Shown here: in pieces, positions 21,585 to 30,397 of the stretch | Position numbering within the stretch: position 1 is the stretch's first letter | How the letters are laid out: every line of letters starts with the position of its first letter | Source of the DNA: a virus | DNA length: 30,507 bases | Virus record (IMG/VR): IMGVR_UViG_3300008012_000103 | Coordinates: 1 to 30,507 of that record | Direction: 5' to 3' (one strand) | The notes under the pieces: model-generated | The model's input: the letters and a program-made list of their open reading frames with translations, nothing else | The model's database searches: none | What the model was told of the DNA's origin: nothing | Position numbers and translations under genes: made by a program

Positions 21585-21590
21585 ATTGTA
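21585..21590 (-). promoter_or_regulatory. Leaderless promoter for the FkbM gene (TACAAT, 6 nt before GTG)
   Basis: Read on the minus strand, TACAAT is followed by TTTCTT and then GTG at 21578, so the transcript should begin at or by the start codon. TG and one base (TGa) precede the box, making an extended -10. It lies 6 bp from the oppositely directed TATAAT of the glycosyltransferase gene. Confidence 0.55.
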
Positions 21591-21593
21591 TCA

Positions 21594-21602
21594 TGCTATA
21601 AT
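21594..21602 (+). promoter_or_regulatory. Leaderless promoter for the glycosyltransferase gene (TGcTATAAT, 6 nt before the ATG)
   Basis: TG at 21594-21595, one base, TATAAT at 21597-21602, then TTTTGC and ATG 21609. The perfect extended -10 with a 6-nt gap predicts a leaderless transcript. No ribosome site is present. Confidence 0.65.
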
Positions 21603-21608
21603 TTTTGC

Positions 21609-22397
21609 ATGTTTAAACCCATACAATATGACAAGCATTTTGTTATCGGAACCCCCCTTGTTGGATGGAAAGTAGACAGAGGTGAGCATATGTACTGGTT
21701 ACAGAATGCAAATAAGATTAGAGAAAAATTTCCCAACGCTGTTTACTTTGCTGCATTAGAGCTTGATCACAGAGGAATAGAGCCATTTAAGCCAATGATA
21801 GAAGTATTAGAATCTGTTGGCGGTAATTACTGGACATACACTATTGATGATAGGCAGGAGACAGTAACATCTGGCAATCGCTGGATAAGAATTGAAACTG
21901 GTCGTAATCTTATTCGTGAGTTTGCACAAAGAAAAAGAGTAATGTCTGGAAATAATTGGGGAGAAGAAACAAAACAGTCAGTTGTAAATTTTGATGCGAT
22001 TCTTTATATAGACTCAGACAATATTGTTACAACGGAAATTATAGAAAAAATGTTTGAAATTGATAGACCACTTGTTGGTGTAGATGTTCCAGCATATGGG
22101 TTGAAGGGCGAAGTTGTAAATCAAAGACCAAGAATTGAGGAGCATTGGACAACTGCTGGAATGCTGCTTGTTAATGCTCCAGCCTATTACGACCTACCCT
22201 GGTTTCATAATGCATACTTAAATCTTAGCGATGACCCAACATTCCAATCAGTTGCGAATAGACTAAAAAGGCGGGTAGGACAAGAAACATTTGAAGATAC
22301 ATATGGAATGACATGGGTAAGAAAAGATATCAAGTCTGAGCATAAGGGTCAATTAATTTCTGTAGAGAAAAGAAATATACCTAATAGAATTATTTAG
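21609..22397 (+). CDS. Probable GT-A-type glycosyltransferase
   Basis: In this 262-aa protein VNFDAILYIDSDNIV (126-140) has the D-x-D metal site DSD (135-137) of GT-A glycosyltransferases, and the start FVIGTPLVGW resembles the first strand of family-2-like transferases. The region RPLVGVDVPAYGL and WTTAGMLLVNAPAYYDLPWF (about 180-200) looks like the acceptor half. The sugar and acceptor are unknown. Likely targets are phage virion proteins, DNA bases or a host glycan. The gene has its own leaderless promoter and overlaps the convergent endolysin gene by 8 bp. Confidence 0.75.
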   Translation: MFKPIQYDKHFVIGTPLVGWKVDRGEHMYWLQNANKIREKFPNAVYFAALELDHRGIEPFKPMIEVLESVGGNYWTYTIDDRQETVTSGNRWIRIETGRNLIREFAQRKRVMSGNNWGEETKQSVVNFDAILYIDSDNIVTTEIIEKMFEIDRPLVGVDVPAYGLKGEVVNQRPRIEEHWTTAGMLLVNAPAYYDLPWFHNAYLNLSDDPTFQSVANRLKRRVGQETFEDTYGMTWVRKDIKSEHKGQLISVEKRNIPNRII

Positions 22398-22917
22398 TTC
22401 TCTTGCCATTCTTTTTAATGCCAAGTAGCCTTTGTACTTCCTTAACATCTTTAAAGGTAGTATTTCTTTTAGCACCACGATCCCATGACTGAGAAAGTTC
22501 TGTGTGCATACCGTCTGGCTTTCTCCACCATTCACCATTTGCAAAAATTCTGTGACCATCCTTTGTCTTGTAACGATCAAGAATGCGGTTGAGGATCTTC
22601 ATTTCTGATTGATTCATGTGTGGCTTACCGTCTGGCTTAAGAACATCGTATCTAAGGTCTACGGCTGTTCCAGATGCGTGGTTTGAATAGTTTTTGGTAT
22701 ATCTAGAGTATCTGTAATTCCACCCGTCTACTGGACCTTTGTTTAGATTGAGTCTTTCTGGCATTTCAGCGTGCCAGTCTGCAAGAAATGCAGCAAAAAC
22801 TGGAGCGATGCCACGACGAACACGAACGGTTCGATTAGTTCCTGGAATTTTAACAGCCTTAAGTCTTGGATCTGCCCATTTTGTAATTACGGGCCAGTTG
22901 TTTAATGATTTAGCCAT
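22390..22917 (-). CDS. Endolysin: M15-family zinc peptidase (VanY/L-Ala-D-Glu type)
   Basis: The start at 22917 is chosen because a TATAAT box stands 6 nt upstream; an ATG at 22932 would add five residues. The 175-aa protein has the zinc ligands H80 and D87 (NHASGTAVDLRYD) and H138 (GMHTEL), as in M15 carboxypeptidase/endopeptidase lysins. It cuts the peptide part of peptidoglycan. There is no signal peptide, so a holin would be needed. The C-terminal DVKEVQRLLGI looks like the first helix of a PG_binding_1 repeat, but it is cut short before the repeat ends. The gene shares its promoter region with the kinase-P450 operon. Confidence 0.85.
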   Translation of the reverse strand: MAKSLNNWPVITKWADPRLKAVKIPGTNRTVRVRRGIAPVFAAFLADWHAEMPERLNLNKGPVDGWNYRYSRYTKNYSNHASGTAVDLRYDVLKPDGKPHMNQSEMKILNRILDRYKTKDGHRIFANGEWWRKPDGMHTELSQSWDRGAKRNTTFKDVKEVQRLLGIKKNGKRTK

Positions 22918-22923
22918 ACAAAT

Positions 22924-22929
22924 ATTATA
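22924..22929 (-). promoter_or_regulatory. Leaderless promoter for the endolysin (TATAAT, 6 nt before the ATG)
   Basis: On the minus strand TATAAT (22929-22924) is followed by ATTTGT and ATG 22917. The -10 overlaps by 2 bp the -10 of the rightward promoter. Confidence 0.65.
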
Positions 22930-22933
22930 CACT
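22928..22933 (+). promoter_or_regulatory. Leaderless promoter for the kinase-methyltransferase-P450 operon (TACACT, 6 nt before the ATG)
   Basis: TACACT at 22928-22933, then ATACCT and ATG 22940. The box fits the TANNNT form with the 6-nt gap seen elsewhere in this window, but is weaker than TATAAT. A second reading is TATACA (22926-22931), 8 nt before the ATG. Confidence 0.5.
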
Positions 22934-22939
22934 ATACCT

Positions 22940-23818
22940 ATGAATTACGAAGAATTCTTAAAGTTCTGGCTAGAAGAAAGCCAAGGGTTTAATAAATTTA
23001 CAGATATTCAGAGACTGTCTTCTGGAATATCATCTAATGTTTGTAGAATAGGTAATGCTAGTGGTGACACACTAATATTAAAATATGCTATATCAGATGA
23101 CTTTGTGACCAAAAAAAGAATATTCAATCAGTATCAAATACAAAAAACTCTTTATGGTAGCTTTCCTGTTGCCGAGCCTCTTTACTATAATATTTCTCCA
23201 TCAATTTTTGAATTTCCTTTTTACATAATGGAAGATATTGAAGGAAGGCCAAGTTACAATAGTGAATCAATAATTAATTCGTTTGATATGCTGCATAAGT
23301 TACACAGCATGGATCTTGATAAATTTTTAACATCGAAAACCAAGGGTAAAAATAACATAGGATATAATATACAAAAAATAAACAAACAATGTATTGATAG
23401 GTCAGAGTTAGTTCCCATAAATGTAGATCACATACATAAGTGGCTCATGAAAAATTATCCAGAAGAAAACAAAAATTCAATAGTTCATAATGATTGGAAA
23501 ATGGACAATATTTTATTTCATAATAATCAGATATCCGCAATACTAGATTGGGAGCTTTTTGATGTAGGAGATCCTAGAATGGATTTTGGCATAGCAATGT
23601 CTTACTGGTCGGATGAGTATTTATGTCCCAAGGAGAAGGTGCTTGATTTATTTATTGATAAGTATTTTGTAAGTGAAAAAGAGTGGAAATTCTTTGAGGT
23701 TTTAGGAATGTTTAGGCTAATTCCCATAGCACAATTAGCACAGATACGATATAATAATATGACTATCCAAGATAAAATAAATACGATAGTAGAAAGATGC
23801 GAAGGAGCAATAAGATAA
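22940..23818 (+). CDS. Aminoglycoside-phosphotransferase-fold (APH/choline kinase-like) enzyme
   Basis: The start at 22940 fits the leaderless promoter; an open frame from 22739 would run antisense over the endolysin. The 292-aa protein shows the kinase-like fold: glycine loop at about 28-33 (SSGISS), VHNDWKMDNILF (182-193) with catalytic D185 and N190, then the metal aspartate D203 in ILDWELFDVGDPRMDFG. This is the Brenner motif set of APH, choline and homoserine kinases. The substrate is probably a small hydroxyl compound. It opens a three-gene operon with a methyltransferase and a P450, which suggests work on one shared metabolite. Confidence 0.82.
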   Translation: MNYEEFLKFWLEESQGFNKFTDIQRLSSGISSNVCRIGNASGDTLILKYAISDDFVTKKRIFNQYQIQKTLYGSFPVAEPLYYNISPSIFEFPFYIMEDIEGRPSYNSESIINSFDMLHKLHSMDLDKFLTSKTKGKNNIGYNIQKINKQCIDRSELVPINVDHIHKWLMKNYPEENKNSIVHNDWKMDNILFHNNQISAILDWELFDVGDPRMDFGIAMSYWSDEYLCPKEKVLDLFIDKYFVSEKEWKFFEVLGMFRLIPIAQLAQIRYNNMTIQDKINTIVERCEGAIR

Positions 23819-24430
23819 ATGTCAAGGGTTTTATATCAGCCAGTATTAAATCAGGCCATTAATGATAACTCAGCAATACTTAGGGGCTGCCAAGATAGGC
23901 TAGATGCTATGGTTGCCTTTTGTGAAAACAAGTTTGGCTCCTCTCTTTCAGAAAAGTCATTTTTAGATATTGGATCTTGTTACGGATTTTTTGTAAATGC
24001 ATTTAATGGTTTATGCTCAATTGTTACTGGTATTGAGAATGGAAACAAAGAATTTAATATGACCAGAATATTTTATCCAGACATTTCTTCTCAAATAAAC
24101 AAAGAAGATTTTACAGAGACAATAGACGGCTACCAAAATTATGACATTGTTTCTCTTTTAAGCGTATTGCATAGCATAATAATTTCAGATGGTGCCGATC
24201 ATGCCGCAGAAATTCTAAGAAAAATTGATGCAAAAACAAATGATGTTTTATTTATTGATATGGGCCAAGAAAATGAATTAATTTATAACAGCAGTATGAG
24301 TGGATGGAATAAAGATTCTATTGCCCAATGGGTACTGAATGAGACAAGTTTTGATGTTTGTGAACCATTGATTGAAGACTCTGACCCAAGATTTGGAAGA
24401 ACCCTTTTTGCCTGTTATAGAAATAAGTAA
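23819..24430 (+). CDS. Class I SAM-dependent methyltransferase
   Basis: The ATG follows the previous TAA directly, with AAGGAG about 13 nt upstream. This 203-aa protein has motif I LDIGSCYGFF (49-58), the acidic end of strand 2 in VTGIENGN, and motif IV-like YDIVSLLSVLHSII (about 108-121), which together make up a Rossmann methyltransferase core. The N-terminus (RDxx-type basic helices) could form a substrate lid. The target atom cannot be read from sequence. Its stop overlaps the P450 start (TAATG), so the pair is coupled. Confidence 0.75.
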   Translation: MSRVLYQPVLNQAINDNSAILRGCQDRLDAMVAFCENKFGSSLSEKSFLDIGSCYGFFVNAFNGLCSIVTGIENGNKEFNMTRIFYPDISSQINKEDFTETIDGYQNYDIVSLLSVLHSIIISDGADHAAEILRKIDAKTNDVLFIDMGQENELIYNSSMSGWNKDSIAQWVLNETSFDVCEPLIEDSDPRFGRTLFACYRNK

Positions 24431-25602
24431 TGAAGCAAGTAATTGGCGGGGAAGACTTAATAAATAGTTTTATTTCTCTTAGAGACTCCTGTGATAATGG
24501 ATATTTTCATTATAGCTATGGCAAAAGAGATGCACTATTAATATTTTCTCCAGAAATTGTTAATGAGGTCTTAGTAAATAAACAAAACAGTTTTTCTAGA
24601 GGGATAGTTTTTCTTAAAATGAAAAACTTTTTTGGCAATGGCTTGATAGTATCAGAAGATCCAGAGCACATAACAAACAAAAGAATGCTGCAGGGTAGTT
24701 TTAGCAAAAAGATAGTTGATGATTATCAAACAATAATTAATAATGAATGCAATGCAAGCTTTGAAAACTTAGAAGAAAAAGGCTTCTCGTTGTCAAATTT
24801 AGCAGACAAGGTAGCATTTGATTGCGTTGCTAAATGTTTTATTGGAGAAGATGTTCCATCTGAATATATTTCTGCATACCATGATATATCTTATAAGATA
24901 TCTAACATTCCTAGACTTGTATTTTCTACTGAAGAAACAATTAATTTTTCGCCTGTTAGAAACTTTATAAAAGATATTATTTTACAGAGCAATGTACAAG
25001 ATAACTTACTTTGGTCAATGATTAATTCTGACATGAATACTGATCAAATAACTGATGAAATAATAACCATATTAGGTGCTGGATTTGAAACAACAAGTGC
25101 TTTGATATCTTGGACACTTATTAATTTGTATAACAATGATGACGTTCTACAAAAATGTAGAGAAGATGACTCAATGATAGATAAAGCTATTAAAGAAACA
25201 TTGAGAACAAATCCTCCTGCTTACTTTACAACTAGGACGGCATCAAATGATATAGATTTATCTGGCGTAACAATAAAGCAAGGAACAAATATTTTTATAT
25301 CGCAATATGTTACTCATAGGGATAAAAAATACTATTCAGATCCAGATAATTGGAACCCTGAAAGATGGAGTAAACAATTTGAAAAAAGCTTGCCCCGTGG
25401 AGCATACTTCCCTTTTGGAATGGGGTCTAAAAAATGTATTGGCGAATATTTTTCTATAATGGTTGCAAAAACCTTTATTTCATTATTCATTAATAGATAT
25501 CATTTTGAAATAATTGACAAAAATATTAAACCAAAGTACCTTGTTTCCATGATTCCAGATAGCCCTGTGACTACAATCACTAGTAGTTTGTTCGACAAAT
25601 AA
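24430..25602 (+). CDS. Cytochrome P450
   Basis: This 390-aa protein has all P450 hallmarks: the C-helix region with H80 and R85 (EHITNKRML), the I-helix oxygen site GAGFETTS (216-223), the ExxR pair E256/R259 (KETLR), the PERF-like NPERW (309-313), and the heme loop FGMGSKKCIG (329-338) with C336 as thiolate ligand. There is no membrane anchor, so it should be soluble and fed by a ferredoxin; no redox partner gene is visible, so host proteins are implied. It inserts oxygen into a small molecule. Arginine codons are nearly all AGA/AGG, unlike the CGT-using core genes. P450 genes are rare in phages. Confidence 0.93.
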   Translation: MKQVIGGEDLINSFISLRDSCDNGYFHYSYGKRDALLIFSPEIVNEVLVNKQNSFSRGIVFLKMKNFFGNGLIVSEDPEHITNKRMLQGSFSKKIVDDYQTIINNECNASFENLEEKGFSLSNLADKVAFDCVAKCFIGEDVPSEYISAYHDISYKISNIPRLVFSTEETINFSPVRNFIKDIILQSNVQDNLLWSMINSDMNTDQITDEIITILGAGFETTSALISWTLINLYNNDDVLQKCREDDSMIDKAIKETLRTNPPAYFTTRTASNDIDLSGVTIKQGTNIFISQYVTHRDKKYYSDPDNWNPERWSKQFEKSLPRGAYFPFGMGSKKCIGEYFSIMVAKTFISLFINRYHFEIIDKNIKPKYLVSMIPDSPVTTITSSLFDK

Positions 25603-25620
25603 ACAAAGTCTTGATATAAT
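25592..25620 (+). promoter_or_regulatory. Sigma70-type promoter (TCGACA-17-TATAAT with extended -10)
   Basis: TCGACA (25592-25597) differs by one base from the -35 consensus, followed after 17 bp by TATAAT (25615-25620), with TGa at 25612-25614. The start point is near 25627, leaving a leader of about 30 nt that carries AAAGGAGG before ATG 25657. This is one of the strongest promoter and ribosome-site pairs in the window. Confidence 0.75.
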
Positions 25621-25656: not shown

Positions 25657-25830
25657 ATGAAAACACTCATGCGTAAAATTGAGAATCTTTTCACAAACGC
25701 CACAAGCGAAGAAGAAAAGTCTCGTCGTGCAATGCACCGTGCATGGATGGTCGAAAGAGAAAGGGCCGCTAGATATGGCCCCCATCATGTCCAAGAGATT
25801 GACGCAATCTTTACTCGCGCAGGACTCTAA
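25657..25830 (+). CDS. Small, highly expressed-looking charged protein (57 aa)
   Basis: It has AAAGGAGG about 7 nt upstream and a strong promoter of its own. The protein is helical and basic/acidic: MKTLMRKIENLFTNATSEEE, then KSRRAMHRAWMVERERAARYG and a HHVQEIDAIFTRAGL tail. No cysteine, no membrane segment and no known motif. Isolation between two promoters, with a short monocistronic unit, suggests early or high-level expression, as for host take-over peptides. Function is unknown. Confidence 0.65.
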   Translation: MKTLMRKIENLFTNATSEEEKSRRAMHRAWMVERERAARYGPHHVQEIDAIFTRAGL

Positions 25831-28861: not shown

Positions 28862-29040
28862 TGATTAAATGCTGGAACTGCGGTACAGAAATGGAAAAAC
28901 GCGGGGTAGAAGAATACAAAGCATCATTACTAGCTAATATAAGAAATCTAGAAGAAATATTTTCTACCGTAGGAGATAACTATAGGGCAAGTGCCTATGA
29001 AGATATTATCTATTTGATTGAGAACTTTGATGGGCAATGA
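28858..29040 (+). CDS. Small protein with one CxxC (60 aa)
   Basis: The ATG overlaps the preceding TGA. The N-terminus KCWNCG (4-9) is half a zinc ribbon and the rest is a helix (YKASLLANIRNLEEIFSTVG) plus an acidic tail. The other half of a ribbon is absent, so it may dimerise around one zinc. Its 3' end overlaps the convergent dioxygenase gene by 31 bp. Confidence 0.5.
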   Translation: MMIKCWNCGTEMEKRGVEEYKASLLANIRNLEEIFSTVGDNYRASAYEDIIYLIENFDGQ

Positions 29041-29591
29041 GGAATCTCTCCATATGGCACATCATTTAGCCATGTTACAAGAACAAATTTTTCTCCTGAT
29101 TTTACTGGCATAGCCTTGTGAGTGCAGACATAGTTTGATGGAAAGAATACCGCTGAAGGAGTCTGAGGCTTTATACTCACATCATAATATTGAAAGTATG
29201 TCTGCCCACCCTCATATTCGGTCGGGTTTAAATAAACAATGACTGAGGTAGTTCTATATATATTCCACGCAGCATCTGAATGATAATCGAAATATTGTCC
29301 TTGTTCGTATTTGAGCAGACTAACCCTTTCTGATGAACGTAGATCCGCATTTGGATGATTTGCACAATAGTCTTGAGAGTAAGAAATAAGTAAGTCTTTT
29401 AGCTTATTTTTTATATCGGGGCTAAACCATTTAAAGGGAGTTTCTGTACTTGTTCTTTGAGGCTGAGTAGAGACTTCCCCTGCAAGAAGAGAGTCTTTCC
29501 ACATTGGCTTTATTCTTTGTGAGAAAGCAATAATATCTTTGGCAAGTTCGGGTGGGAAATCATATACTTCAAATCCTGGTGGATATATCAT
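29010..29591 (-). CDS. 2-oxoglutarate/Fe(II) dioxygenase (prolyl 4-hydroxylase-like)
   Basis: In this 193-aa double-stranded beta-helix protein the iron ligands are H104-x-D106 (FDYHSDAAW) and H158 (VCTHKAMPV), and K168 (SGEKFVLVTW) is the 2-oxoglutarate anchor. The order H-x-D...H...K is that of P4H-type dioxygenases. They hydroxylate proline in proteins or small molecules. The start overlaps the sulfotransferase by 23 nt, with AAGGAAAGG about 12 nt upstream, so both form a minus-strand operon. It may act on a virion protein, a host glycoprotein or a metabolite. Confidence 0.85.
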   Translation of the reverse strand: MIYPPGFEVYDFPPELAKDIIAFSQRIKPMWKDSLLAGEVSTQPQRTSTETPFKWFSPDIKNKLKDLLISYSQDYCANHPNADLRSSERVSLLKYEQGQYFDYHSDAAWNIYRTTSVIVYLNPTEYEGGQTYFQYYDVSIKPQTPSAVFFPSNYVCTHKAMPVKSGEKFVLVTWLNDVPYGEIPHCPSKFSIK

Positions 29592-30360
29592 TATCGAATC
29601 TTTCCTTTCCTTTAATATATATCTCGTAATCTGGGCTTTTGTCGTAGAACTTTTGTCTGGGAAATAAACAGTCGTATGGCTTACCCACAGCCTTATCTTT
29701 GTTGTCGTTGGTGTTGCCTCCTGCCACCTTTATTCCCCACAAGCTATTTAACAGGTCTATGGTAGCAGACATGTTTTCCGTTATGCCAACGGAATCAAAA
29801 GAATCAACGTCATCAAAATAAACGGGGTAGGTAGGATTATCTACTGACCACTCTAAGTAATCATCTACACTCATATCATACTTATGAATGTTATATGTCT
29901 TGTCATAAAAAGCAGTTGATGGACCATCGTCAGTAAATCCTCCCCAACCAGAAATTCCCATTATCTTTCCTGTGTGGTGAGCTAAAAACTCAAGTTTGCG
30001 AGGATCGGTTAAATCCCAATTTTTAAAAATGCTCAATGCGTTCTGTGCCTGTCGCTTGATGAAATAGTATTCAGAAGCAGCCCTGTCATAAGGATCGCGG
30101 AGAACAGTAAAGTAGGGGGTAGAGTTATTCGTAATCTCCTTTATGAGAGAAAGAGTCATATGAGAAGAGCCAGGAGTCTTAGAGTTTCTTAGCCGTGCTC
30201 GTCCTAAAGAATAAGGGGAATAATAATGAGAAGGCACGGGGGTTAGAGAAAGATATGTACTTCCTGTCTTAGGTACAAACACTATCCCTATAGATGTATT
30301 AATAGAAGGAGAAGATCTAGATATGGTGGTTATTTCTTTGTATTTTTTGGCTTCATTCAT
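29569..30360 (-). CDS. Sulfotransferase (PAPS-dependent)
   Basis: The start at 30360 is favoured because an extended -10 (TGaTATACT) stands 8 nt upstream; an open frame from 30378 would add six residues and overlap it. The 263-aa protein has the 5'-phosphosulfate loop VPKTGSTYL (29-37) and the 3'-phosphate site FTVLRDPYDRAASEYY (84-99), the two defining PAPS-binding motifs. Family members sulfate sugars, peptides or small molecules. The acceptor is unknown; linkage to a dioxygenase and to glycosyltransferase/methyltransferase genes suggests a glycan or a natural-product-like molecule. No PAPS synthesis gene is visible, so the host must supply the donor. Confidence 0.82.
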   Translation of the reverse strand: MNEAKKYKEITTISRSSPSINTSIGIVFVPKTGSTYLSLTPVPSHYYSPYSLGRARLRNSKTPGSSHMTLSLIKEITNNSTPYFTVLRDPYDRAASEYYFIKRQAQNALSIFKNWDLTDPRKLEFLAHHTGKIMGISGWGGFTDDGPSTAFYDKTYNIHKYDMSVDDYLEWSVDNPTYPVYFDDVDSFDSVGITENMSATIDLLNSLWGIKVAGGNTNDNKDKAVGKPYDCLFPRQKFYDKSPDYEIYIKGKERFDNDISTRI

Positions 30361-30368
30361 GATAAATA

Positions 30369-30377
30369 AGTATATCA
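30369..30377 (-). promoter_or_regulatory. Extended -10 promoter (TGaTATACT) for the sulfotransferase operon
   Basis: On the minus strand TGaTATACT ends 8 nt before ATG 30360, so the leader would be only 1-2 nt. There is no ribosome site. This is a nearly leaderless variant of the pattern seen elsewhere. Confidence 0.5.
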
Positions 30378-30397
30378 AATTGTTGCATAAAAAGATA

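Follow-up and report, generated by a model that had tools for sequence, protein, structure and literature searches.

Genes and promoter boxes at the lysin-kinase gap

The window (i.e., the whole stretch of DNA that was analyzed, 30,507 nucleotides) is a 30.5-kb contig from a viral record. Among its genes is a WhiB gene, taken as a marker of actinophages in a study of cultured freshwater phages (PMC10202952), and the host of the phage probably belongs to the actinobacteria. A lysin gene on the minus strand and a kinase-methyltransferase-P450 cassette on the plus strand begin back to back, with the following features:

22390 to 22917, minus strand: endolysin, M15-type peptidase of 175 aa (PHROG endolysin, 1e-12; relatives at 54 to 91% identity)
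22923 to 22928, plus strand: alternative -10 box TATTAT, with a predicted start near 22935
22924 to 22929, minus strand: lysin -10 box TATAAT, kept upstream of the lysin in six relatives (L001 to L006)
22928 to 22933, plus strand: candidate kinase -10 box TACACT at the leaderless offset; its last T is missing in relatives (TACACC)
22940 to 23818, plus strand: APH-family phosphotransferase (kinase), first cassette gene (Pfam APH, 1.8e-24)
23819 to 24430, plus strand: SAM methyltransferase-like protein (weak Methyltransf_11 match, 0.0082)
24430 to 25602, plus strand: cytochrome P450 (Pfam p450, 6.4e-53), whose last codons cross a dyad described below

The endolysin also matches Pfam Peptidase_M15_4 (2.9e-4, under the gathering score). 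Its minus-strand ATG appears as CAT at 22915 to 22917 and the kinase ATG lies at 22940 to 22942, so that, as an earlier sequence-only reading had noted, 22 bp (22918 to 22939) separate the two start codons. The same reading described two -10 boxes overlapping by 2 bp, and this is borne out: the shared bases are TA at 22928 to 22929, a self-complementary (palindromic) pair. Because TA is its own complement, two -10 boxes that begin with TA overlap naturally at such spacing.

In a leaderless gene, the -10 box is expected to end about 7 nt ahead of the start codon. The lysin box, an exact TATAAT consensus, has its final T at precisely this position (-7 from the ATG), and TACACT, which agrees with the consensus at 4 of 6 positions and fits both TANNNT and TANANT, likewise ends at -7 from the kinase ATG. 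No Shine-Dalgarno sequence is visible upstream of the lysin start at 22917, and a search at the kinase start at 22940 found none. Since both genes combine a -10 box at the exact leaderless offset with the lack of a Shine-Dalgarno sequence, both are probably leaderless, and the leaderless starts proposed in the sequence-only reading are to that extent supported. For the kinase box, it is position that points, weakly, to a promoter. The predicted starts at 22917 and 22940 would be 23 bp apart, while TATTAT would place a start approximately 5 nt upstream of the kinase ATG and 18 bp from the lysin start. A GTG at 22932, five codons upstream of the lysin ATG, opens the longest ORF; it was rejected as the lysin start, as it would put the -10 box inside the gene and its frame is broken by a 7-nt gap in one relative (L006).

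Few relatives of the cassette (the "tailoring operon" of the sequence-only reading) were found. Close relatives of the kinase were not found in viral contigs, nor were close relatives of the P450 in viral or genome contigs; only three phage records matched the P450, at 22 to 25% identity. The sole methyltransferase relative among the viral contigs (46%) adjoins an APH gene in contig L140, and none was found in genome contigs or phage records. This related kinase-methyltransferase pair (L140:1103-2622) occupies the same variable site and comes without a P450; the lysin is absent from the stretch of L140 covered. Near the contig end of the window, minus-strand genes at 29010 to 30378 encode a 2OG-Fe(II) oxygenase and a sulfotransferase-like protein, which we read as further small-molecule- or glycan-modifying enzymes of the phage.

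Predicted leaderless promoters against chance expectation

Loose motifs carry little information in the window: bare TANNNT-N6-ATG occurs 37 times (33.5 expected), and TATAAT-N6-ATG with at most one mismatch occurs 23 times (22.3 expected). TANNNT alone, not being above chance, was therefore rejected as evidence. We listed by hand 54 plausible gene starts, 42 of which are countable ATGs. Of the gene ATGs so counted, 4 of 42 have an exact TATAAT at offset 6, versus 0 of 1,316 other ATGs (p = 8e-7); the four are at 2844, 16173, 21609, and 22917, and one of them is a judgement, as 2844 was picked as the first ATG past the previous gene. TANANT at this offset precedes 6 of 42 gene ATGs versus 7 of 1,316 others, and TANNNT is also found ahead of 31 of the 1,316 non-gene ATGs. 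At the remaining offsets from 2 to 13, exact TATAAT precedes none of the 42 gene ATGs, and neither exact TATAAT nor TANANT is enriched at gene ATGs of the window at offsets besides 6. The gene that follows the DnaB-like helicase gene probably begins at ATG 2844, with an exact leaderless TATAAT, and not with the longer TTG frame at 2781.

Five related records contain exact TATAAT-N6-ATG 23 times, versus 3 times for a reversed control. When six records were pooled and ORFs were called mechanically, the exact box preceded 16 of 579 early in-frame ATGs versus 11 of 8,945 others, several of these 11 opening shorter reading frames; these pooled counts are not independent, as the records share genes. 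In this pool, enrichment of the exact box is seen at offset 6 and weakly at 7, whereas offset 11 shows none. It is thus very probable that phages of this group do have leaderless -10 promoters.

The window also contains a second divergent leaderless pair, with these boxes:

21585 to 21590, minus strand: -10 box TACAAT of an FkbM methyltransferase gene (GTG 21578)
21597 to 21602, plus strand: -10 box TATAAT of the gene at ATG 21609

The predicted starts of this pair (21578 and 21609) are 31 bp apart and 1.3 kb from the lysin-kinase gap. Close divergent pairs in which both boxes are at the leaderless offset thus number two in the window versus approximately 0.05 expected; none was found in the five relatives. 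Both pairs sit where the relatives have other neighbors, and the DNA ahead of the 21609 ATG is quite different in the relatives. It had been suggested that a switch with start codons as transcription starts would be unusual, a view that the presence of a second such pair only 1.3 kb away does not favor.

Lysin relatives, a probable insertion junction, and a dyad probably displaced by it

Relatives of the lysin were found at ten loci among viral contigs, eight of which include the start. Six of these eight (L001 to L006; four distinct sequences) keep the lysin box, with GTGTATAAT, then 6 to 7 nt, then the ATG. A more distant relative (L007) has a Shine-Dalgarno sequence in place of the box, and another (L010) has neither the GTGTATAAT promoter nor a Shine-Dalgarno sequence at the lysin start. 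None of the six relatives with the box carries the cassette beside the lysin; on the opposite strand, the neighbor is a small ORF whose Shine-Dalgarno sequence is strong and whose promoter has TATAAT (the L006 fragment covers only the upstream part of this neighbor). Alignment of the relatives with the window extends on the lysin side to 22932 to 22941 and resumes from 25566 to 25576, with the cassette missing between. The cassette thus stands where the relatives have roughly 12 bp of sequence, directly upstream of the lysin -10 box. A DNA pattern scan of the viral contigs matched at least 120 stretches, including L001 and L065 (the latter in the contig of L002).

Insertion of the cassette in the lineage of the window would be the simplest reading, its polarity resting on parsimony and not on proof. 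Since the cassette is missing in all six relatives that share the lysin promoter, the pairing of lysin and cassette looks like a recent junction. At the site of the kinase box, four distinct relatives read TACACC and the window reads TACACT; the plus-strand box would thus combine five bases from the old lysin promoter with a sixth from the junction.

On the far side of the cassette lies the DNA that borders the lysin promoter in the relatives:

25567 to 25580, plus strand: CRP/GlxR-like dyad GTGA-N6-TCAC, adjoining the lysin promoter in relatives
25587 to 25607, plus strand: TTTGT-N11-ACAAA, another conserved dyad, which covers the -35 region and spacer (9 of 9 aligned promoters)
25615 to 25620, plus strand: -10 box TATAAT of the old neighbor promoter, conserved in relatives
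25657 to 25830, plus strand: small ORF of 57 aa with a strong Shine-Dalgarno sequence, the divergent lysin neighbor in relatives
L131:2433-2446, L132:3988-4001, L140:2603-2616, and L200:3414-3427: copies of the first dyad upstream of the small-ORF promoter

A scan for promoters with a -35 element (31 found versus 29.5 expected) was uninformative apart from one site, at 25592 to 25620, which is the best promoter-like site of the region (11/12). Nine small-ORF promoters were aligned without gaps, anchored on the -10 box (two of them, L136 and L194, are nearly alike); L133-group loci were excluded because of their differing upstream DNA and retain only GTGATCTGTAACAC. The nine share TGA..A...TCAC and TTTGTT.GA(c)......ACAAA, and TGA-N6-TCAC is present in 9 of 9. 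Pairwise identity is 92% in the arms of the first dyad, 50% in its center, and 36% in the DNA to its left. The second dyad, invariant in the nine aligned sequences, resembles a repressor operator.

The site at 25567 to 25580 is the only perfect GTGA-N6-TCAC of the window. The operator consensus of GlxR/CRP is given as TGTGA-N6-TCACA (PMC7999487), and the window sequence TGTGA-CTACAA-TCACT agrees with it at 9 of 10 consensus letters; its arms are conserved and its center is variable in the relatives, as in such an operator, though the full ten-letter consensus is not reached. No Crp-type helix-turn-helix was found in any of the six phage records, and any protein that binds the dyad would therefore be a host protein. 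In the relatives, the dyad has its center at -33.5 relative to the lysin ATG and covers the -35 region; a protein bound there would presumably repress the lysin. In the window, the lysin lies about 2.6 kb away from the dyad. Classic CRP activator positions (class I/II) are -41.5 or -61.5. Neither promoter has the dyad at these positions, and the window dyad, at approximately -53.5 from the presumed start of the small-gene promoter, is not at a classic activator position and is a candidate operator.

The left edge of the dyad is also where accessory genes are joined on. In L131, L132, and L200, the TGA of the dyad serves as the stop codon that ends the upstream gene, while in L140 and the window the gene on that side continues through the dyad and stops beyond it.

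A probable bidirectional promoter and its known counterparts

We favor, with some but by no means full confidence, the reading that an insertion junction gave rise to a bidirectional leaderless promoter in the 22-bp gap. A holoenzyme of the host type would read TATAAT leftward and yield a lysin mRNA that begins at its ATG, and the overlapping TACACT would be read rightward to yield a cassette mRNA that begins at or within about 5 nt of the kinase ATG. At any given instant, a single DNA molecule could be read in only one of the two directions, and a dedicated switch would be unneeded. The insertion would also have carried the lysin approximately 2.6 kb from the old CRP/GlxR-like dyad.

Points against this reading include the 4/6 agreement of the kinase box, the 31 of 1,316 non-gene ATGs that also have TANNNT at this offset, the Shine-Dalgarno sequence of the L007 lysin, and the possibility of readthrough from the 21609 gene. 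If the plus-strand box arose by chance, the cassette could be transcribed from the promoter at 21597 to 21602 across the convergent lysin gene, giving lysin antisense RNA. The exact TATAAT-N6-ATG of the 21609 gene, the failure to find a terminator-like site between 22390 and 22940, and the chance-level frequency of TANNNT-N6-ATG across the whole window are compatible with such readthrough. However, the kinase ATG, without a Shine-Dalgarno sequence, would be poorly translated from a long leader, and TANANT is found at the leaderless offset of gene ATGs far more often than of others (6/42 versus 7/1,316); we regard readthrough as a possible but rather unlikely source of the cassette transcript.

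It is doubtful that the insertion rewired lysis. Under this proposal, a host cAMP-responsive protein of the CRP/GlxR type, bound at -33.5 in the relatives, would have repressed the lysin, and with that repression lost in the window, polymerase occupancy of the overlapping cassette promoter would have become the sole remaining brake on the lysin, such that cassette transcription would time lysis.

The sequence-only reading had inferred a mutually exclusive switch between lysis and tailoring, in which a polymerase on one -10 box shuts off the other and the cell makes either lysin or cassette products. Its physical premise is sound: with the -10 boxes overlapping by 2 bp, simultaneous occupancy by two polymerases is sterically impossible, and in promoters that have been tested, one direction can be repressed when the other is activated (PMC12825309). 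Mutual exclusion at one instant is true of any such site, however, and a lysis-versus-cassette switch is a further claim, for which we find no support. The pairing of both genes at the site is not conserved, the cassette being missing beside the lysin in L001 to L006. At known bidirectional promoters, basal firing one way leaves the other direction unaffected; basal transcription is described as too low for competition, which arises only upon strong activation of one direction (PMC12825309). A divergent leaderless pair of M. tuberculosis (i.e., prpD and Rv1129c) is induced together, by starvation (PMC3898074). Additionally, the gap itself yielded no regulator site, and the conserved dyad is 2.6 kb off. 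Such a switch is thus very improbable. There is equally little to recommend the idea that TATTAT (22923 to 22928) is the rightward promoter and TACACT is irrelevant, since, for all its 5/6 agreement with the consensus, its identical letters in relatives L001 and L002, and an 18-bp spacing to 22917 that is the commonest at bidirectional promoters (PMC12825309), it would leave a leader of about 5 nt in a phage group that shows no enrichment of the exact box at offset 11, in contrast to 6 and, weakly, 7.

In our best reading, then, the promoter is of a known kind, bidirectional, leaderless, and ordinary, and arose through gene insertion. The case suggests that a phage can gain genes with almost no added regulatory DNA: where promoters are leaderless and need only a -10 box, a few junction bases are enough for a transcript start, with most of the new box already present on the opposite strand of an older one. 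The relatives without the cassette and the window form a clean before-and-after pair for the effect of gene insertion on lysis timing. The comparison also draws attention to a CRP/GlxR-like site that these phages have conserved.

Promoters that fire in both directions from shared or overlapping -10 elements were reportedly described by Warman et al. in 2021. The lysin-kinase gap would belong to the overlapping class, its -10 boxes on opposite strands (TATAAT at 22924 to 22929 and TACACT at 22928 to 22933) sharing bases. A search of openly accessible literature, at the level of titles and the openings of abstracts, turned up no divergent leaderless pair in a phage whose -10 boxes overlap. In a study of bidirectional promoters (NAR 2026; PMC12825309), divergent starts are most commonly 18 bp apart, with 10 and 23 bp also common, and steric constraints are reported to block simultaneous binding. 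The gap resembles these promoters in its overlapping opposite-strand -10 boxes and its steric exclusion, and its predicted spacing of 23 bp (with 18 bp available) would fit them. It differs from them in that both mRNAs are predicted to be leaderless and both genes are coding, and in that it is a phage site, probably completed by gene insertion.

In M. tuberculosis, promoters are reported to have mainly TANNNT and no conserved -35 element, about a quarter of the genes with a primary start are leaderless, and closely juxtaposed divergent promoters are called common (PMC3898074). On the basis of these promoter data, neither the layout of the gap nor transcription starts at start codons would be unusual for actinobacteria, contrary to what had been supposed. 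The prpD/Rv1129c pair (PMC3898074) is comparable in form, with divergent genes whose starts in M. tuberculosis are mapped to the start codons, whereas those of the window are predicted. It comprises a host gene and a regulator that are induced together, while the window joins a lysin to an accessory cassette.
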